From Candidatus Bathyarchaeota archaeon A05DMB-2 (GTDB taxonomy: Archaea > Thermoproteota > Bathyarchaeia > Bathyarchaeales > Bathycorpusculaceae): a DNA stretch of 64,000 bases. The notes beneath the pieces were generated by a model. It did not search any database, was not told the DNA's origin, and saw only the letters and a program-made list of their open reading frames with translations. Positions 17,970 to 41,073 of this stretch are shown piece after piece. Numbering within the stretch: position 1 is the first letter of the stretch; each line of letters starts with the position of its first letter. Both the position numbers and the translations under genes were made by a program. The stretch covers positions 1 through 64,000 of the forward strand of contig JAAKEZ010000004.1 of NCBI GenBank assembly GCA_018475625.1. The letters run 5' to 3'.

Positions 17970-18088
17970 TGCAGCGGGCAGGATTCGAACCTGCGAACCC
18001 CTGCGGGAAAGGATATCCCATCCGGGCGCCTTGGGTCAAAGCGTCGATCTTGAGTCCTTCACCTTTGACCTGGCTTGGTTACCGCTGC
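17970..18088 (-). tRNA. tRNA-Leu(CAA) with intron
   Basis: Acceptor GCAGCGG/CCGCTGC with discriminator A, T arm GCAGG-TTCGAAT-CCTGC, long variable arm, anticodon stem AAGGA/TCCTT and loop CTCAAGA (anticodon CAA). The 3' half of the anticodon stem is separated by a 34-base intron at 18015-18048, inserted after position 37, the canonical archaeal site. Mature length 85. The intron contains CTTTGACC, perfectly complementary to GGTCAAAG in the D arm. CCA not encoded. Confidence 0.93.
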
Positions 18089-29450: not shown

Positions 29451-30395
29451 ATGAAAGTAAAACTGTTTGCAGCATGCCTCTTCCTGCTGTTAACAGCAGC
29501 ATCTTTGTCAATTATGCCAACTCACGCCGCAACCGAGGGTCATTGGATAACAAGTTATACTGTGGAAGATGCTCAGACAGGACAGAAGCTAATCGAAGCG
29601 GATTTTGCATTAAGCGATGAGCCTACTGTGTTATCCCCAGTGGTGTCTGGAGCAGAACTTGTGATAACCTTCACCGTTAACGTTGTCGTTGGAGGGTCTG
29701 GCAACTTGAAACTTTCAAGCTACATGCAAAAGCCTAGTAGCGGCACTTATTGGGAACTAATCCCAGGCGACTACGATTTAGGTGCTGGATTCACACCCAA
29801 TGCCGCATCATTCGAGTTCAACTGGCAGAAAGGGACATTCGAGATGATTGCCTATGGTCAAGCAAAAAAAGTTACGGCAGCGGCCATCAACTCCACATTA
29901 ATTCAGTTATCAGGCGCAACTGGCGATGTCTTGGACGCCATAAAAGTGGATATCCTAACTGCGGGAGCGAGCGATTTCCAAAACCTCTACAACCAAAAAG
30001 AGGCTAAACTACAAAGCCTCATCGACTCAGGGGTCGATGCTGGGTACATTACATTGTACGGGAACATGCTAAACCAATCCAAAGCACTGGTAAACAAAGG
30101 CTACGTGAACGAAGCCATAGCATTACTGAACGCGATTCCATCTTCAGGAGAACCGATGGGTTCAGCCTTGCAAATGATTATGATACCCGCAATCGGAGTC
30201 GCAGCGGCTGGTGCAGTAGTATTCGCCTTCCTGTTCCTGAGAGCCAGAGGAAAAAACAGCTACACTCAAATGGTCATTGAAGACCAAATCAAGGACTTAG
30301 AAGGGTTAACGCTGAGAGCATCAAAGATTGACCGAACAATCGCGTCAAATCTGGAAACCGTAAAGGATAGGCTTAAGCGGTTAGTTGGGATGTGA
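29451..30395 (+). CDS. Secreted single-pass membrane protein of tubulin-like locus
   Basis: 314 residues. Cleavable signal peptide (residues 1-26, ending PTHAA), an extracellular beta-rich region (30-170), a helical stalk (175-230), one membrane helix (242-263), and a 50-residue charged cytoplasmic tail predicted helical (IEDQIKDLEGLTLRASKI...). The tail could link the membrane to the tubulin-like protein next door, whose GTG start overlaps this gene's stop. No catalytic motif. I know no named family; the coupling and topology suggest a receptor or anchor. Confidence 0.8.
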   Translation: MKVKLFAACLFLLLTAASLSIMPTHAATEGHWITSYTVEDAQTGQKLIEADFALSDEPTVLSPVVSGAELVITFTVNVVVGGSGNLKLSSYMQKPSSGTYWELIPGDYDLGAGFTPNAASFEFNWQKGTFEMIAYGQAKKVTAAAINSTLIQLSGATGDVLDAIKVDILTAGASDFQNLYNQKEAKLQSLIDSGVDAGYITLYGNMLNQSKALVNKGYVNEAIALLNAIPSSGEPMGSALQMIMIPAIGVAAAGAVVFAFLFLRARGKNSYTQMVIEDQIKDLEGLTLRASKIDRTIASNLETVKDRLKRLVGM

Positions 30396-33088
30396 CCTCT
30401 ACGAGAATATATCAAAACAGTGTACAACTGATAGGTCTGGGTTCAGCTGGAACAAACATCGTAGAAAGCTTTTTGTCCAATAAGAAAACCATGGAACTGC
30501 TGCAAAACGACATAACACGGCTCTCGCTTTTGGCGATTGACATAGCAGATCCTGAAATCAGGAGCCTGCAGGAATCTCACGAGAGAATAGCAAAAGCTAT
30601 GGTGAAAGCGGGCATACCGAGCGAAAGAATGCGGCTCATCGCCCAATCAGTCAAGTTTCCAACAGCTGAAGCGATGTTTGACTTCATCAACCAAAAATAC
30701 AACGAATACTTGGTGAATGAAGGCGCCAAAATTGAACGCTTCGACCCCTGGCTTGAAACAACAATGGCTATACCGCCCATGGCAGGCGGCGCAGGCAGAA
30801 GAAGGGCCCTAGCAAAAGCAATTTACGCATTGAATTACTACCAACTCGGAATAATTCGAAGCTTCATAAACTCATTCAAAGAACAAGCGCTCTCCTCCAT
30901 AATCACGCCAACCGTTGTCCTGATTTACGGACTAGGCGGCGGCACTGGAAGTGGTGTGTTCTTTGAATTCGCTAGGCACCTGCGTAAAGTGCTAGGCTCC
31001 GGCGTACCAATCATTGCTTTCGTTATTGCTCCATGTGGCGGAGACGACCCTCCAGCAAAGGGCTGCTCTGCGTACGTGGCGATGAGCGAGCAGTCTTTGC
31101 TCTTGAACAAGGACTACAATGAGTACGTGGTTAAATCTTTTGGCGAATGTTACCGAAACCCCCTGAATGCGCTAATCTACTTGCCACTGCTGCCCGCATA
31201 CACTAAAGTTGGCAACATCGTTACTGCGCGAAAAGAAATGGATGAAATGGTCGTGGACATGCTCTACGTGCTGATGGACTTCGACCTCGCGGACCTGTTA
31301 GGCGGCATCGGGACAGAAGTCGGACTCACCGACAACTACGTTCACACGCTTGGTATGGTCAAGGTAGTGTACCCGGTAGAAGACTACATTTCAGCGTTTA
31401 AACTGAACTTCGAAAAGCTGGAATTAATCCATGAAATGAGGAAAGAGAAGCTGGAAATTCTAGACGGCATTAACGAAGCAATAAAGCTTGACAATGAGAT
31501 GGCAAGGGAGCTCTACAAGAAATACCTCATAAAAACAGGAACCTACGAGTATGAACAGTTCGAGGAAAAAGTGAAATCCGTAATCTTCGGCAACCCCAAG
31601 CTTGAAGAAGACCTGCTGTTGCACGTTAAGGGCATTGAGCTTCAAGCGAATAATTGGATGAGCGAACTGATGCGGTACCTATCAACTATCAAAAAGATGG
31701 GCAAGGTAGGACCAATCGAGGAAGCCATAATAAATTTGACACTTCACAAGCCCGGCTCCAGAAAAGTAGACAATTTGGAAGCACTCCTCACCAACATCAC
31801 GAAGACGCACCTCGAGTTCTCCGACAGAAAAGCCACAATCTTCGAGCGTCTAAAGCAGCTTGTGCCCAGTTCACAAGTGTTCACTGTACGGCAGAAACGA
31901 GTCTTAGATGACTTCATGAACCTGACAGAAATTGCTGATAGGGCGCTTAACGTCCTCAAGTTTTACGACCACACCCGATACTTAACCGACGCCCTCGTCA
32001 AATACTACGAAGTCCTCCCTGAATCTCAGGCCGAACTGAAAGAGTTAAAGGACATCCAAACTGAACTTGCGACGCTTTACCTCATAGTGCAGCTGATGCT
32101 TAGAACACCGCTCGATGAGTCAAAGATTATCGACGAGCACCTCACCTACGTGAATGGAATCATAGCAAAATACTTAGAAAAGAAAAACGTCCTCGACAAT
32201 GAGCTGTTGCGGGTGCAGGAGACAAAGAAGCGGAAAGAATTCGACAGGACAAAATTGGAAAGAGAACTGCGAAAAGTGCTCAGCATGAAAAAGTATGCGA
32301 GAGAGCAGCTTATACAACTTGAAAGGGACATGAAACGTATTGCGGAAGAAGAATCATACGTCATCGAGAAACTTGACAAGCTGGATGGTATAATTAAATC
32401 TTATGACAGGTTGGCGAAGAAGATTGCGCCGGTTTCTGACTACCGCAAGAGACTGAACAAAATAGTTGATTTGTACCATGAAATCGATGACACGCTGGCG
32501 TACATAACCCGTCCCAAGAAATACTTTGAAAAAGCAACTGAACTCACCGAAGCTGAGCAGATGAAAATAATCTTCAAGATACTGACTGAACAGGAAGAGA
32601 CTCTGACAAAAGATTCAATAGTCAAGGACATACTGGACATGGAGCACTTCAGGGACTACATGAAGAGCGTCATCCGAGTCTTCAAAACGCCGAGCGTCAT
32701 GGGATTCAAGCCCACCTACAAGACTGACTACATCTGGGTCACAATCTCGACTCCTCCAAACCTCTGGAGCGAGGACCTTACACAAGAAGTGTACACTGCA
32801 CTTGCAGGCTACGTCACCAGCGAAGTCTCAAGGACAATAACGGTGCGAGTGATAGAATCCCGCGATGACTGGACAACCAGAGTCCTAGTCGTGGCTGGAA
32901 GAGGCAGACCTGAACATCTCGAGGCGTACGATGAAATGCAGCTGCTGTACAGCAAGTCTAACGACTTCGAAAGACACCTGTCACGCTCATACCTCATCGA
33001 GCACGGAGTAACCGCGGGACAAGTCATCAAAGAAATAAACGCTGTAAACCACAACGATACCCAAGTGTTTCAAGAAAAGAAAAAATAG
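30392..33088 (+). CDS. Large tubulin/FtsZ-superfamily GTPase with coiled coil
   Basis: 898 residues. Residues 1-400 are a tubulin/FtsZ-type GTPase: phosphate loop GLGSAGTN at 15-22, the tubulin signature GGGTGSG at 182-188, and a T7-like catalytic loop DFDLAD at 296-301 where FtsZ has NxDxxD. The acidic residues that trigger GTP hydrolysis in the neighbouring subunit are kept, so assembly into filaments is plausible. Residues about 490-680 are strongly coiled-coil, and 760-898 form another alpha/beta domain. Far longer than FtsZ (about 380). It resembles the long FtsZ-like families proposed to act in membrane remodelling (Pfam Tubulin_2-like). GTG start coupled to the upstream membrane protein. 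Confidence 0.88.
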   Translation: MTSTRIYQNSVQLIGLGSAGTNIVESFLSNKKTMELLQNDITRLSLLAIDIADPEIRSLQESHERIAKAMVKAGIPSERMRLIAQSVKFPTAEAMFDFINQKYNEYLVNEGAKIERFDPWLETTMAIPPMAGGAGRRRALAKAIYALNYYQLGIIRSFINSFKEQALSSIITPTVVLIYGLGGGTGSGVFFEFARHLRKVLGSGVPIIAFVIAPCGGDDPPAKGCSAYVAMSEQSLLLNKDYNEYVVKSFGECYRNPLNALIYLPLLPAYTKVGNIVTARKEMDEMVVDMLYVLMDFDLADLLGGIGTEVGLTDNYVHTLGMVKVVYPVEDYISAFKLNFEKLELIHEMRKEKLEILDGINEAIKLDNEMARELYKKYLIKTGTYEYEQFEEKVKSVIFGNPKLEEDLLLHVKGIELQANNWMSELMRYLSTIKKMGKVGPIEEAIINLTLHKPGSRKVDNLEALLTNITKTHLEFSDRKATIFERLKQLVPSSQVFTVRQKRVLDDFMNLTEIADRALNVLKFYDHTRYLTDALVKYYEVLPESQAELKELKDIQTELATLYLIVQLMLRTPLDESKIIDEHLTYVNGIIAKYLEKKNVLDNELLRVQETKKRKEFDRTKLERELRKVLSMKKYAREQLIQLERDMKRIAEEESYVIEKLDKLDGIIKSYDRLAKKIAPVSDYRKRLNKIVDLYHEIDDTLAYITRPKKYFEKATELTEAEQMKIIFKILTEQEETLTKDSIVKDILDMEHFRDYMKSVIRVFKTPSVMGFKPTYKTDYIWVTISTPPNLWSEDLTQEVYTALAGYVTSEVSRTITVRVIESRDDWTTRVLVVAGRGRPEHLEAYDEMQLLYSKSNDFERHLSRSYLIEHGVTAGQVIKEINAVNHNDTQVFQEKKK

Positions 33089-33102
33089 CCATCAAAGCAG
33101 CG

Positions 33103-34236
33103 TTAATCTTTGGCTAAGCTCTTGACGATGCCTTGCCAATCTTCTTCTTTTATTAACCCTTTATTGACTGCTTCACTCTCGATATCCTTGGCTTTCTTCT
33201 CCATCGAAGCGAATAGTTTAGACTTGTCGAAGCCGCCTACAAACATGACGACGTCTACACGGTCGCTGACCTCGTCCACGTATATCGGCTCGGTAACGTA
33301 GATGGATTTTAGACTTGCTTTTTCCTTAAACCAGCTTGCTATGGACAACTCAATTTTTCCTCTCGGAAGCTTATCCTTAAGGTGGAGAGGCATACGTACT
33401 AGCACGTAAAGTAGCGAAACGGTTGATACGTCAAAAGCCAAGAGAGGTCTTGACAACGCGGTGTTGAGTATGTTCTCCAGAGAACCATAAATCCTGGGGC
33501 TGGCCCCAGTGGCTGACAGCACTGTGAAAACTTTGACGCCAAAAGACCGAGACAGCTCAGAGAGCTCTTGGACAAGCGTGTCTTTGGAAAGCATTAGCTC
33601 CAGCAAGTACTCCAAGAGGACGTTGCCCTTCATCACCGAGCCGTCCCTGTTGACTCCCACAAAGCTTTCCAGATGGTCCCTGTCTATGAGCAAGACAGTT
33701 GAGGAATCCTGAGAGGCGCACATCCCCAGAGACGACAGCGCATTGAAGTGAACATCTGAAGGCTGCAGTTTCGAAGGCAGTATGGCTAACGCCACCGAGT
33801 TTATGTTCCATTCCCTGAATCGAGCAGCCAAAGCGGGCAAAAGAGCGCTGGCAACACCGTCCCACAAGGAAGAAACCATCAGGGCGTCAGTTACCTTCTC
33901 AACAGACTTATCCTTCAAACGTGCAATGAATGAGTCGTCTTTGGCGATGAAGGATGAAACGTGGAACCAGAAGTGAGTGTCAACCTTCGCGTCTAAACCC
34001 AAAACCCAATCTGGATTAAGCGAGGACTGGCTCCATTTAATGATGTCTTTGCTGGACTTGCCGATGAATAGAGGCATGGTGTCCACTATTTTCTCGACAA
34101 AGTTTTCCTTGAGTAGGATTTTGGTTGGATATTCCCCTATGCACACCACGGCTTGTTGGGGAACGTACTGCCGCAACATGTCAATGTGGTTTCTAATGCT
34201 TTCGAGAACGTCAAACTGGGTTTTTTCGCCGTTCAT
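33103..34236 (-). CDS. Probable inactive tubulin/FtsZ-like paralogue
   Basis: 377 residues, no signal or membrane segment. The middle follows FtsZ order: a helix after SSLWDGVASALLPA (122-135) where FtsZ has its glycine-rich signature; NINSVALAILP (144-154) like the FtsZ strand before its KPF loop; NALSSLG; VLLIDRDHLESF (181-192) like the PNDRLL strand; LSRPLLAFDVS (261-271) like the NPLL segment. The GGGTGSG signature and the NxDxxD loop are both missing (SATGASP replaces the latter). I infer a pseudo-GTPase partner of the neighbouring filament protein. Runs convergent to it and divergent from the membrane gene. The superfamily call rests on my reading of pattern order. Confidence 0.65.
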   Translation of the reverse strand: MNGEKTQFDVLESIRNHIDMLRQYVPQQAVVCIGEYPTKILLKENFVEKIVDTMPLFIGKSSKDIIKWSQSSLNPDWVLGLDAKVDTHFWFHVSSFIAKDDSFIARLKDKSVEKVTDALMVSSLWDGVASALLPALAARFREWNINSVALAILPSKLQPSDVHFNALSSLGMCASQDSSTVLLIDRDHLESFVGVNRDGSVMKGNVLLEYLLELMLSKDTLVQELSELSRSFGVKVFTVLSATGASPRIYGSLENILNTALSRPLLAFDVSTVSLLYVLVRMPLHLKDKLPRGKIELSIASWFKEKASLKSIYVTEPIYVDEVSDRVDVVMFVGGFDKSKLFASMEKKAKDIESEAVNKGLIKEEDWQGIVKSLAKD

Positions 34237-34296
34237 AGGGGTGAATCACAATAAGCTTTAAGTTTGGTTTGATAAAATAAGGCTTTAGGTACTCAG
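34237..34296. promoter_or_regulatory. Short divergent promoter region
   Basis: Only 60 bases separate the starts of the inactive tubulin-like gene (minus) and the polytopic membrane gene (plus). GATAAAATAA at 34271-34280 lies about 20-25 bases before the TTG start at 34297, implying a leaderless plus-strand transcript. Shared control of both genes is likely. Confidence 0.5.
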
Positions 34297-36693
34297 TTGA
34301 AACCCGTAAGCAAACTGGAGGCTCTCCACAGGCCTCAATGGTTCAAAAAACATAAGGAGAAAGGAAAAGAAAAAGAAGCGAGACAACGCGGGCAGGAGCC
34401 TCAACTTCTTAGAATGGCAGCTTTCGCCATAACCCTCGCCAGCATGTCTTTGGGGATGTCGCTTCTGCCCGTTTTCCCCCAGCCGCTGCCTATTCTCATA
34501 GCCTTCTTGATTGCCTTCGTCACCTACAAGAGCCCAAAGTTCGGCATGCCCATCGGCGCTCCGCTCATAGCGTTAGGATTACTGTATCACCTGTCTGCGC
34601 TGAACTTCATAGTGGCGTTGGGCGACACTTTCGTTCGCGGACTCGTGGTTTTCATGTTTCTGTTCCTGTTTACCGCCTTGCCGCTGGTTTTCCACGGCTA
34701 CAGGGACGCAATCGCTATTAATCTGGGTATAATCGCGGCGATTTTGCTTTTCTCCGGGGGAACCTATTACCTTGCCGTGCCTTTGATTTTGACCTCGGCG
34801 GTTTTCTTCAAGAAGAAAGCTGTTCTGTCCGCGGTTTTTTACGGCTTGATTTCGGTGCCTCTCATGGTGATGCAGTACTTGAACTACTTCTCGCAGATAG
34901 AAAGACCTGATTGGTGGGTTGAACCTGGCTCCAGCCCACCCATTTACGTTCCGTTGACGCATGTCTTCGAGGGCATGCAGGAGTCGATGGCTCAGTTCCG
35001 ACTGTACGACACTTCGAAGATAGTGTGGAGCATAACTGGGCAGATAACGGATTCTCCGCCACTTGCTGAGCACACGGTGGGCGAGGCGTTGTCCCATTAT
35101 CTCGATTCTCTCCCGGGCATAGCACTCTTCATAGTCATGGTGTTCGGTCTTGTCCTGTTCATCGGGCTTTTAGCCCGCATGCTGTTTGAGAAGACTCCGG
35201 AACTGCCCGGGGAAAGATTGCTTCCCATGGTCACGGCGGTCACTGCCACAGCGCTATTCTTCGTATTCTTAATAGGCCTCCAAGGCGCGTTAGCCTTCAG
35301 AGCTGACGTGAACGGTACACAGATGGTCATTGGCACCTTCGCTACCGTCCTGTTCACGGCGCCTGCGTTGCTGGTTAACACTGCGCCAAAGAAAAGGGCA
35401 ACAACCGAGATGATTATTGCGAAGGCGCAGGAGCTTTTGGGAAAGCTGCAGGTTTTTGAGGGTTCGCTGAACACTGTTAAGAGCAACATTCCGGTTCCGG
35501 TCAGCGCGATTGAGGGAAAGATGCTAGTGGTTAAAGACAGGTTGAACGACATCATAAGCAAAACTTCAACAAGCTACTACGACCTGTCTGAGTCGGATGA
35601 AGTGTTCGACGAACTGGACAAAGACTTAACCAACCAGTTAAACGAGTTAACTACCGACCTCGACGTGGCAGTTTCCGAGTACCAGATATACGTTAACGGC
35701 GAGTACGCGGCGTGGACTGGGAAGCTCCGAGGCATGGGCTTAGAAGTTAAAACCGCCGCGAAAACGGATTTCCAAATAGGCATGCCTATAGAAGACAAAG
35801 TAAATCAAATCAAGGAGGTGCTTGAAGACGGTCAACGTGTCTCCGCCGAATCGGTGCAGGTGGTTGTGCAAGTTTACAGCGTCATACGCTCACTGTACGA
35901 CCCAAGCCTTCCGGAAAAAAGCCAAGCAATAGAGTTTGCCCAACAGAAGCTCAGAGAAGAACCTGCGCCTTGGCTTGCTATGGAGGCTCTTTTCACCGCG
36001 CTTAACAATTGGCGGAAGCAGTACGGCGCCGAGATTTCCAAGTCCGTGCAGTATCTTCAGGACTCCTTAACAGCCATCGCCAGTCTCAACGCTCAAAGCG
36101 AACGCTTGCTCCCGGTTTTAGGCGGGAATTATGTGAAAGTAATGGATGACGCAAAGAAAGCTGCAGAGATCAGAATTATCATAGAAAAGAACTCGCTCAA
36201 CGTCACGAACGTCATCACCATAAAAGATGTTTTTCAGTCCTCGCTGACAATTGCCAAGGACGTGGTTTCAATTCTCTACTCAGAGCTCAAGAGCACCGAG
36301 GAGGCAATCCAGAACCTGCTGCCAGACAAAGATTACCTGTGGGAGAAGAACATTTCCTTGATGGAGCGGCTGTCTTCTGCTGTGAGCCTGTTCTCTGATG
36401 AATCCCAGTATGGCGTGAACAAGGTGCTGGAGAACATGCCCAAATCCTTATCCAACCTGGGCGAGTGCGTGGACACGCTGGACTTATATAATGAGAGGCT
36501 TGAGTTGTTGCTGAACTATCCTATAGCCGCGATGACGATAGAAAGCTTGTCCAAGCAGAAGAAACAGGTTTCCGCCAGAGACCTCCCGTTCGAGTCCCGG
36601 TTCGCGCAGGAGTACCTTAAACTCTTTTATAGCGAAAGCTACAGCCGATTCGTTTTTGACGAATCCAACTTGGCGCTTATGCGAAGAGAATAA
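34297..36693 (+). CDS. Polytopic membrane protein with long helical tail
   Basis: 798 residues. A basic N-terminus (KHKEKGKEKEARQR), about eight to nine membrane segments between residues 38 and 365, with one longer loop around 205-265 (IERPDWWVEPGSSPP). Then some 430 soluble residues, mostly helical and heptad-rich (AKAQELLGKLQVFEGSLNTV onward), likely cytoplasmic. No transporter or enzyme motif recognised. Proposed membrane platform of the tubulin-like system, because it is divergently paired with the inactive paralogue and follows the GTPase. TTG start at 34297. Confidence 0.8.
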   Translation: MKPVSKLEALHRPQWFKKHKEKGKEKEARQRGQEPQLLRMAAFAITLASMSLGMSLLPVFPQPLPILIAFLIAFVTYKSPKFGMPIGAPLIALGLLYHLSALNFIVALGDTFVRGLVVFMFLFLFTALPLVFHGYRDAIAINLGIIAAILLFSGGTYYLAVPLILTSAVFFKKKAVLSAVFYGLISVPLMVMQYLNYFSQIERPDWWVEPGSSPPIYVPLTHVFEGMQESMAQFRLYDTSKIVWSITGQITDSPPLAEHTVGEALSHYLDSLPGIALFIVMVFGLVLFIGLLARMLFEKTPELPGERLLPMVTAVTATALFFVFLIGLQGALAFRADVNGTQMVIGTFATVLFTAPALLVNTAPKKRATTEMIIAKAQELLGKLQVFEGSLNTVKSNIPVPVSAIEGKMLVVKDRLNDIISKTSTSYYDLSESDEVFDELDKDLTNQLNELTTDLDVAVSEYQIYVNGEYAAWTGKLRGMGLEVKTAAKTDFQIGMPIEDKVNQIKEVLEDGQRVSAESVQVVVQVYSVIRSLYDPSLPEKSQAIEFAQQKLREEPAPWLAMEALFTALNNWRKQYGAEISKSVQYLQDSLTAIASLNAQSERLLPVLGGNYVKVMDDAKKAAEIRIIIEKNSLNVTNVITIKDVFQSSLTIAKDVVSILYSELKSTEEAIQNLLPDKDYLWEKNISLMERLSSAVSLFSDESQYGVNKVLENMPKSLSNLGECVDTLDLYNERLELLLNYPIAAMTIESLSKQKKQVSARDLPFESRFAQEYLKLFYSESYSRFVFDESNLALMRRE

Positions 36694-39072: not shown

Positions 39073-41073
39073 ATGCGTAGCCCAAACCGAATCATAAAAT
39101 ACGGCGTCCCCTGCCTTCTGATATTGATAATTGTGATTTCTGTCTCAGCCATGTTTGCACTCATCCCAATTCCAGATGGGAATCAGGCTAAGGCGACAGC
39201 CAACGTCAACGTCGGCGTCGCTTTTTGTGGAAACACCACCCAAGAAGCCAAGGTGCTCATCGACCGAGTTAAAGGGTACACGAACCTTTTTGTCCTTGAT
39301 TCAGGTGCCAACCCAATAAGCAGAAACCAGACTGCAATCGAGGAGATATGTGATTGCGCGGTTGCCCAAGACTTAAATATCATAGTCAACCTTGGTCACA
39401 TCCACTCCCAAGTAAGCTGGTTCTGGCAATTATCCTCGCTTGACGGCATCATGCAACGGTGGACTGAACGGTGGGGCGATAGGTTCCTAGGCATATACTA
39501 CAATGATGAGCCAGGCGGAATCCAGCTTGACGGAAACTGGACTGACTGGTTTGCAACCCACCAACCCCAACTCCAACAAAACCCTAGTCTTTACGCCATA
39601 TACAACAAAATGCAGGAATTCAAGGCAAACGGCTCCACGCCTCAGGATTACGATTTAGAAGCCCAATTCTTCATCCACGACGTCCTCCAAGAAGACCCGG
39701 GACTCATCAGGCTGAAAGACGCGGAAATCACCACGTTCACCTCCGACTATTGTCTTTACTGGTTCGACTACCTTGGCGGCTACGACGTCATGTTCGCCGA
39801 AATAGGCTGGAACTGCAGCATAGCACAACAAATCGGCTTAGTCAAGGGCGCGGCACGCCTGCAGAACAAGGACTGGGGCGCTATAATCACTTGGAAGTAC
39901 GGCGCGGCGCCTTACCTTGACACGGGAGAACAGATGTACAATCAAATGTTAACCGCCTACCAAGCAGGCGCCAAATACATCATCATATTCAATTATCCGA
40001 TAATTGCCGGCAACAAATACGGAGCCTTAACCGACGAACACTTCATCGCCATAGAAAGATTCTGGAACGACATAACAAACCAAGAAAAAGCCAAAACCTT
40101 CGCCGACCTGAGCAAGCCGGAAGCAGCATTGGTGCTGCCGAAAAACTACGGTTGGGGCATGCGCCACCCAGACGACACAATCTGGGGGTTCTGGGGACCA
40201 GACAGCAAAACCCTGCAGGTCGGAACAGTCATGGGTAAACTCCTGGCGCAGTACGGCGAGCGCTTGGACATCGTATATGAAGACCCTGCCTATCCAGTTT
40301 CTACAGGAGGCTACCGAAATATCTACTACTGGAATGCCTCCAACGCGAATGGGCAAACTGAACCAGCAAACTCGGAGCCTCTGCAGTACACCTACAACGT
40401 CGTAAACACTTATTCTCATGACTCGAACGCCTTCACACAGGGACTCGTGTTCGACAACGGTTTCCTCTATGAAAGCACGGGACTAAACGGAAACTCTACT
40501 CTGCGACGCGTGGCCTTAGCAACTGGCAACGTCGTGCAGGTTTACGCTCTTCCAGACCAGTACTTCGGAGAAGGCATCACCATAGTCGGGGACAAAATCA
40601 TCCAGTTGACGTGGCAGTCGCACATAGGCTTCGTATATGATAAGTACTCGTTTGCTCTGCTTCAAAACTTCAGCTACGCCACCGAGGGATGGGGCATCAC
40701 GTACGATGGCGCCCAACTCATAATGAGCGACGGGTCATCAACCCTGTATTTTCTGACCCCCAACACCTTTCAGATAACTAGGCAAATCCAGGTGCACGAT
40801 GTCGACGGACCTGTTGTTAACCTCAACGAGCTGGAGTACATAAACGGAAAAGTCTACGCCAACGTCTGGATGGAAGATAAAATCGCCGTAATTAACCCAC
40901 AAACCGGACAGGTCGAAGCTTGGATAAACCTGAGCGGCATCCTGAACCCGCAGAATCCTGACCCGAACAGCGTGCTCAACGGCATCGCGTACGACGCAAA
41001 CACCGACAGACTATTCGTCACGGGGAAGATGTGGCCGCAACTTTTTGAAATCAAGCTGGTTCCTGTGGATTAG
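39073..41073 (+). CDS. Secreted fusion: glycoside-hydrolase-like barrel plus glutamine cyclotransferase
   Basis: 666 residues. N-terminal membrane anchor or signal (VPCLLILIIVISVSAMFAL). Residues about 45-400 look like a TIM barrel (NVGVAFCGNTTQ; WGDRFLGIYYNDEPGG; GAIITWKYGAAPYLDTGEQ; AKYIIIFNYPI) with acidic residues at strand ends, like uncharacterised glycoside hydrolase folds. Residues about 435-666 match the beta-propeller glutamine cyclotransferases (FTQGLVFDNGFLYESTGLNGNS; YFGEGITIVGDKIIQLTW; LNELEYINGKVYANVW), which form N-terminal pyroglutamate. The combination is unusual. TATA-like sequence close upstream; stand-alone gene. Confidence 0.82.
   Translation: MRSPNRIIKYGVPCLLILIIVISVSAMFALIPIPDGNQAKATANVNVGVAFCGNTTQEAKVLIDRVKGYTNLFVLDSGANPISRNQTAIEEICDCAVAQDLNIIVNLGHIHSQVSWFWQLSSLDGIMQRWTERWGDRFLGIYYNDEPGGIQLDGNWTDWFATHQPQLQQNPSLYAIYNKMQEFKANGSTPQDYDLEAQFFIHDVLQEDPGLIRLKDAEITTFTSDYCLYWFDYLGGYDVMFAEIGWNCSIAQQIGLVKGAARLQNKDWGAIITWKYGAAPYLDTGEQMYNQMLTAYQAGAKYIIIFNYPIIAGNKYGALTDEHFIAIERFWNDITNQEKAKTFADLSKPEAALVLPKNYGWGMRHPDDTIWGFWGPDSKTLQVGTVMGKLLAQYGERLDIVYEDPAYPVSTGGYRNIYYWNASNANGQTEPANSEPLQYTYNVVNTYSHDSNAFTQGLVFDNGFLYESTGLNGNSTLRRVALATGNVVQVYALPDQYFGEGITIVGDKIIQLTWQSHIGFVYDKYSFALLQNFSYATEGWGITYDGAQLIMSDGSSTLYFLTPNTFQITRQIQVHDVDGPVVNLNELEYINGKVYANVWMEDKIAVINPQTGQVEAWINLSGILNPQNPDPNSVLNGIAYDANTDRLFVTGKMWPQLFEIKLVPVD

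Follow-up and report, generated by a model that had tools for sequence, protein, structure and literature searches.

A conserved gene cassette around a long tubulin-superfamily protein with preserved GTPase motifs in Bathyarchaeia and distant relatives

To our knowledge, neither a function nor a defined set of partners has been assigned before to the archaeal tubulins of the FtsZl1 type. In this work we describe a locus of four adjacent genes, named here P1 to P4 (positions 29451 to 36693), which is found in a stretch of 64,000 nucleotides (the window) from the genome of Candidatus Bathyarchaeota archaeon A05DMB-2 (contig JAAKEZ010000004.1) and which encodes two proteins of predicted tubulin fold and two membrane proteins. 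The FtsZl1 group was defined by Makarova and Koonin in 2010, at which time its T6-H7 elements were not identifiable; its genes were found beside vWA, P-loop GTPase, kinase and OmpA genes, and a role in membrane remodelling was proposed (PMC2875224). A recent family survey put the Tubulin_2 proteins aside as too divergent (PMC9871819), and the cetZ regions have been reported to adjoin genes for the envelope and for type IV pili (PMC9856176). By its sequence P2, the longer of our two tubulin-like proteins, belongs to the Pfam family of FtsZl1, and it is set apart from that group by a T7 loop which is preserved, by its partners and by the pseudo-tubulin which accompanies it. A preliminary description, made from the sequence alone, had recognised the four adjacent genes, and all four open reading frames were confirmed.

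P2 and P3, two unequal proteins of tubulin fold

P2 (30392..33088, plus strand) is a predicted tubulin/FtsZ-like GTPase of 898 amino acids. It matches the Pfam family Tubulin_2 (PF13809) with an E-value of 2.5e-11 and 43.9 bits (cut-off 27), in an alignment which spans only positions 2-206 of the 356 of the profile, and the same family is matched by 34/34 of its aligned homologues (E<=0.001). Comparison by hhalign with the canonical archaeal FtsZ of the host gives a probability of 94.3% (E 1e-7), and no match to the FtsZ_C domain (PF12327) is found in P2 by Pfam. The AlphaFold2 (AF2) model, built on 34 sequences, has a mean predicted local distance difference test score (pLDDT) of 86.9 and a predicted template modelling score (pTM) of 0.74, and places the tubulin domain at residues 10-326. 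In Foldseek the model retrieves TubZ, CetZ and FtsZ, with a best E-value of 1.2e-5.

The coiled-coil insertion foreseen in the preliminary description is present, and is more exactly a helical insertion of ~440 residues (residues ~329-770; 31376..32701, plus strand) lying inside the tubulin C-terminal domain, where according to the AF2 secondary structure it follows strand S7 and precedes what remains of the domain. Downstream comes a strand-helix-strand-strand element (residues ~781-840; 32732..32911, plus strand), assigned by inspection as S8-H10-S9-S10, which we read on this model as the remainder of a C-terminal domain split by the insertion. AF2 and Foldseek together give P2 the two-domain tubulin fold, with the C-terminal domain interrupted.

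The GTP-binding motifs of the superfamily (T4 GGGTG[ST]G with T1 GxGGxG) are represented in P2 by the T1 loop GLGSAGTN (residues 15-22; 30434..30457, plus strand) and by the T4 signature GLGGGTGSG (residues 180-188; 30929..30955, plus strand), which contains the GGGTGSG noticed earlier and whose glycines 180, 182, 183, 184, 186 and 188 are invariant in the 34 homologues. The T7 synergy loop DFDLADL (residues 296-302; 31277..31297, plus strand) was aligned by motif to NLDYADL of the host FtsZ. Its residues D298 and D301 align with both T7 aspartates of FtsZ and are likewise invariant in the 34 homologues, which come from Bathyarchaeia, Nitrososphaerota, Desulfurococcales and Chloroflexota. P2 is probably an active GTPase of the tubulin superfamily.

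The second tubulin-like protein, P3 (33103..34236, minus strand; 377 amino acids), has no Pfam match on its own. Its family profile, searched against PDB, retrieves CetZ (4b45, E 1.1e-9) and also BtubB and other tubulins, hhalign with FtsZ gives 96.6% and 6.8e-10, and the Pfam Tubulin family is matched by 11/20 members of the P3 family. The AF2 model (pLDDT 89.7) is matched in Foldseek by CetZ 3zid at 5.7e-17 with a TM-score of 0.69/0.72, so that by profile and by prediction P3 has the full tubulin fold. The earlier assignment as a second tubulin therefore stands for the fold, whereas its GTP site is degenerate and intact T4 and T7 GTPase motifs are lacking. At the T4-equivalent site the alignment shows SSLWDGVASAL in place of GGGTGSG (33841..33873, minus strand); T4 is degenerate also in P3 of other Bathyarchaeia and of most Nitrososphaerota, and GGGTGSG is kept in the aligned Chloroflexota. 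The T7 equivalent is AFDVST (33421..33438, minus strand), which in the AF2 model forms the loop preceding strand 275-283, and the second catalytic aspartate is missing in 20/20 aligned family members. Many P3 orthologues outside the lineage of the window carry an N-terminal Cys-rich, zinc-ribbon-like segment.

Membrane partners, gene order and distribution

P1 (29451..30395, plus strand; 314 amino acids) is a type-I single-pass membrane protein composed of an N-terminal signal segment, an ectodomain, one transmembrane segment (residues 245-263) and, in the cytosol, a short helix (residues ~270-314; 30258..30392, plus strand), which in the alignment is conserved between archaeal and bacterial members and includes the invariant residues L283 and D294. 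P4 (34297..36693, plus strand; 798 amino acids) is polytopic, with ~8 hydrophobic or transmembrane segments from residue 42 to 360, followed by a C-terminal soluble tail of ~430 residues (residues ~366-798; 35392..36690, plus strand) which by sequence and hydropathy is predominantly helical. Both topologies, which were read from hydropathy with no dedicated predictor, agree with those given in the preliminary description.

A fifth family, P5 (~310 amino acids), belongs to the conserved set: it adjoins the cassette in one family of Bathyarchaeia, in some close relatives and in other phyla. It is absent beside the cassette described here, and the host copy is found elsewhere in the genome (G000:C103:131871-132803, E 1.3e-48). 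Its N-terminal part is PH/GRAM-like by eye, Pfam giving only 0.03-0.04 in single members, and P5 may act at the membrane or as an adaptor. Searches of Pfam, NCBIfam and PDB profiles gave no convincing known family for P1, P4 or P5; the tail of P4 has weak matches to coiled-coil and helical-bundle chains only. Pfam matches of single members (GRAM, bPH_3, Colicin) and PDB matches to apolipoprotein and helical bundles among the three proteins were treated as noise or weak leads.

The stop codon of P1 and the start codon of P2 overlap by 4 nt, as had been seen before. P3 is on the minus strand and divergent from P4, with 60 bp (34237..34296) separating both start codons, and the locus therefore consists of at least two transcription units and is not a single four-gene operon. 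The earlier view of the four genes as one system holds in so far as they are conserved together, but it has to accommodate this divided transcription and the fifth family.

Searches in the 257 genomes of the class were positive for P2 in 39, for P4 in 39 (two of these with fragments only), for P3 in 37 and for P1 in 33. All four genes are present in 30/39 P2-positive genomes, all 33 P1-positive genomes also carry P2, and several of the gaps in gene presence are genes cut at contig ends. Pairwise co-occurrence of the four genes gives Fisher p values of 3e-30 to 3e-39, uncorrected for shared ancestry. A gene-order survey across Bathyarchaeia, suggested at the outset, shows that the order P1> P2> P3< P4> is identical in two families, with different flanking genes, and that the genes are co-conserved far beyond these. 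The absence of a tubulin-fold match in P2, or of joint conservation of its neighbours, had been named in advance as fatal to the proposal; the match and the joint conservation were looked for and are both present.

A genome-wide scan identified relatives of P2 (~32-82% identity) in other Bathyarchaeia, Nitrososphaerota, Desulfurococcales/Pyrodictiaceae and Chloroflexota. In the last three groups, family HMMs (hidden Markov models) find P1, P2 and P4 adjacent, usually with P3 (and P5) too and often reordered, an example being P1> P2> P4> [P5] P3>. In one locus (L082) P1, P2, P4, P3 and a P5-like gene are co-directional, with short overlaps or 1-bp gaps. Quick trees of P1, P2 and P4, some with long branches, recover the same main clades and place Chloroflexota inside or beside one clade of Nitrososphaerota, as would be expected if the cassette moved as a unit. 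The distribution is patchy, strong P2 matches being found in ~9/197 Dehalococcoidia and ~7/200 Nitrososphaeria.

Several loci deviate from this scheme. Genome G131 (L057 / L098, 1-7572) has a decaying cassette in which P3 carries several stops and P2 and P4 are in pieces, which suggests that the system is dispensable. A lone P2 homologue of 960 amino acids with a C-terminal Cys-rich tail (L051:8408-12637, genome G211), with no P1, P3 or P4 detected, adjoins a gene which by eye encodes an ORC/Cdc6-like ATPase. In the Dehalococcoidia genome G648, P2 is present as two halves ~160 kb apart on one contig, due either to rearrangement or to an assembly error. Genome G010, in which P1-P3 were not found, has a remnant of the P4 C-terminus after a run of N (L085:9366-9785), likely a relic or an assembly gap. 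In Nitrososphaerota a secreted or anchored protein of ~1050 amino acids is encoded after P3 on the opposite strand (L131:13075-16239, L115:15475-18627, L114, L137 and L112); it is conserved among these loci and has a weak transglutaminase-like match.

Upstream of the cassette in the window are rpoB, a fused rpoA, an L30e/L7Ae-type gene and a NusA-like KH gene, by which the contig is archaeal; its closest relatives are Bathyarchaeia. Downstream are genes for a universal stress protein, a MazE/AbrB-type protein and a methyltransferase. The window also encodes a secreted-looking protein of 666 amino acids (39073-41073, plus strand), which ends in a glutamine cyclotransferase domain (5.3e-99) taking up the C-terminal third, and contains a 119-nt Rfam tRNA match (17970-18088, minus strand), unreported by ARAGORN, which is probably an intron-containing tRNA.

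Proposed mechanism and alternative readings

Hydrolysis in FtsZ and tubulin requires that T4 and T7 meet across the subunit interface. In our reading, to which we give an even chance, the locus is the core of a membrane-anchored machine of the tubulin family in which P2 would form the filaments, P3 would regulate them and P1 and P4 would serve as anchors. The folds (by prediction and profile), the motifs, the topology from hydropathy and the co-conservation of the genes are its observed part. P2 would bind GTP and most likely self-assemble along the inner membrane face, in filaments which hydrolyse GTP, because in Bathyarchaeia P2 alone keeps T4 together with the catalytic T7 aspartates. The helical insertion may project as an arm and reach lateral neighbours or the membrane partners. 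Lacking T7 catalysis, and here the GTP-binding signature as well, P3 would most likely be a filament cap, a nucleator or a regulator. P1 would connect its extracellular domain via one transmembrane segment to the conserved cytosolic helix, and P4 would provide a multi-spanning base from which a long helical tail reaches into the cytosol. The output would probably be the organisation of the cell envelope or surface (shape, adhesion, envelope remodelling) and not core division; the ~1050-residue transglutaminase-like protein of Nitrososphaerota fits such an output, without being proof of it. Polymerisation of P2, the cap role of P3, the partner contacts and the cellular output are the steps which we infer.

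Slightly below an even chance we place the wider proposal of a hitherto undescribed five-component trans-membrane cytoskeletal machine, in which a giant split-domain tubulin GTPase and a dedicated pseudo-tubulin would link extracellular receptors to intracellular filaments. Such a machine would either go back to the ancestor of the TACK archaea or have been exchanged widely among them, and Dehalococcoidia would share it.

Some points speak against the main reading. The whole-chain Foldseek match of P2 is modest (TMt ~0.43-0.50), because of the insertion; FtsZl1 proteins have been suggested to be possibly non-polymerising (PMC2875224); the set is at times incomplete, locus L051 having P2 alone; and FtsZ_C was not found in the tested Nitrososphaerota, Desulfurococcales and several Bathyarchaeia, some of these genomes being incomplete.

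Two unequal tubulin-fold genes which are mostly kept together, with P3 nearest to CetZ, BtubB and tubulins and with GGGTGSG kept in the aligned Chloroflexota P3, could also point to an alternating heterodimeric filament of P2 and P3, like alpha/beta-tubulin or BtubA/B, in which P3 is the non-catalytic subunit. We consider this unlikely: P3 of Bathyarchaeia has neither the T4 signature nor the T7 aspartate, so that T7 of P2 would face an empty pocket and the GTP of P2 a dead T7, and with both lost from P3 the strict conservation of P2 is hard to explain by a heterodimer. Doubtful to the same degree is the view that P2 does not polymerise and works as a GTPase switch, within a complex with P1, P3, P4 and P5 which serves membrane transport, secretion or signalling. 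Most of these partners are membrane or adaptor-like proteins, a reviewer has made the case that FtsZl1 acts in transport or signalling (PMC2875224), and a helical insertion of this size could stand in the way of packing into filaments; the invariant T7 aspartates of P2, which in FtsZ and tubulin act across the subunit interface, imply however at least longitudinal dimer contacts.

More improbable is an accessory or alternative apparatus for cell division or membrane fission, which would suit a member of the tubulin superfamily. A division role is possible in the lineages without detectable FtsZ_C mentioned above, but the host has a canonical FtsZ of 356 amino acids, whose frame (358 amino acids) is its sole PF12327 match, and FtsZ_C is present in 5/17 tested carriers, two Chloroflexota included, again with some genomes incomplete. 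The earlier separation of the locus from the FtsZ division ring is supported. This canonical FtsZ, the patchy distribution in the class, in Dehalococcoidia and in Nitrososphaeria, and the decayed copy in G131 make it unlikely, at least here, that the cassette has a core role in division. Patchy presence, inter-domain spread and variable genomic addresses might point to a mobile accessory element which serves conflict or defence; this is very improbable, since PADLOC was negative except for one weak match (0.015), no viral relative was found in a scan of IMG/VR, and the cassette lies here among housekeeping genes (rpoB, rpoA, L30e-type, NusA-like).

Relation to described tubulin systems

As far as could be checked the cassette is real, conserved and undescribed, no paper on it having been found in the open-access literature (subscription papers were outside the search). 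Its placement in the Makarova-Koonin family with membrane partners holds for the family, to judge from the Tubulin_2 matches of P2 and of its 34 aligned homologues, and not for the kind of partners: no vWA, P-loop GTPase, kinase or OmpA gene (PMC2875224) is present among the immediate neighbours in the window or in the cassette. Like FtsZl1, taken here from its published description, P2 has a tubulin domain at its N-terminus and a coiled-coil region after it, has membrane-protein neighbours and coexists with canonical FtsZ. It differs by its identifiable T7 catalytic loop, by the split tubulin C-terminal domain, by its partners P1, P3, P4 and P5 and by the second, degenerate tubulin alongside. 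Of the FtsZl1 architecture (FtsZ-like domain, coiled coil, mostly helical C-terminal domain) the order is seen in P2, but its C-terminus is read as the tubulin-fold remainder and not as a helical domain of its own; the C-terminus of FtsZl1, if re-examined, may prove to be such a remainder too.

Another long Tubulin_2 protein (L080:378-9707, genome G332; 1051 amino acids) is encoded beside PKD-domain and large secreted proteins. In contrast to P2 it has N-terminal transmembrane helices; it matches the P2 profile weakly (8e-7), and no P1, P3 or P4 was detected beside its gene. Its likeness to the SSO1376-type FtsZl1 of Sulfolobales is drawn from the published description of SSO1376 only.

CetZ of Haloferax volcanii and Methanosaeta is the best match of P3 by structure and profile and is, like P3, archaeal and distinct from FtsZ. 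P3 differs from it in lacking the GTP signature and the catalytic T7, shows 12-17% identity, and is accompanied by a long tubulin and by P1 and P4. The canonical archaeal FtsZ of the host (G000:C103, 356 amino acids) shares with P2 the tubulin GTPase fold and alignable T1, T4 and T7 motifs, whereas P2 is 898 amino acids long with the ~440-residue insertion, has no FtsZ_C, has other neighbours and is patchily distributed.

One subfamily of FtsZl1-type tubulins has now a defined and widely co-conserved partner set, and its function becomes testable via four or five named genes, including the homologues of Dehalococcoidia. The P2 subfamily has kept a catalytic loop once thought unidentifiable, and its pairing with a degenerate tubulin corresponds to a sharing of tasks known otherwise from tubulins of the eukaryotic type.

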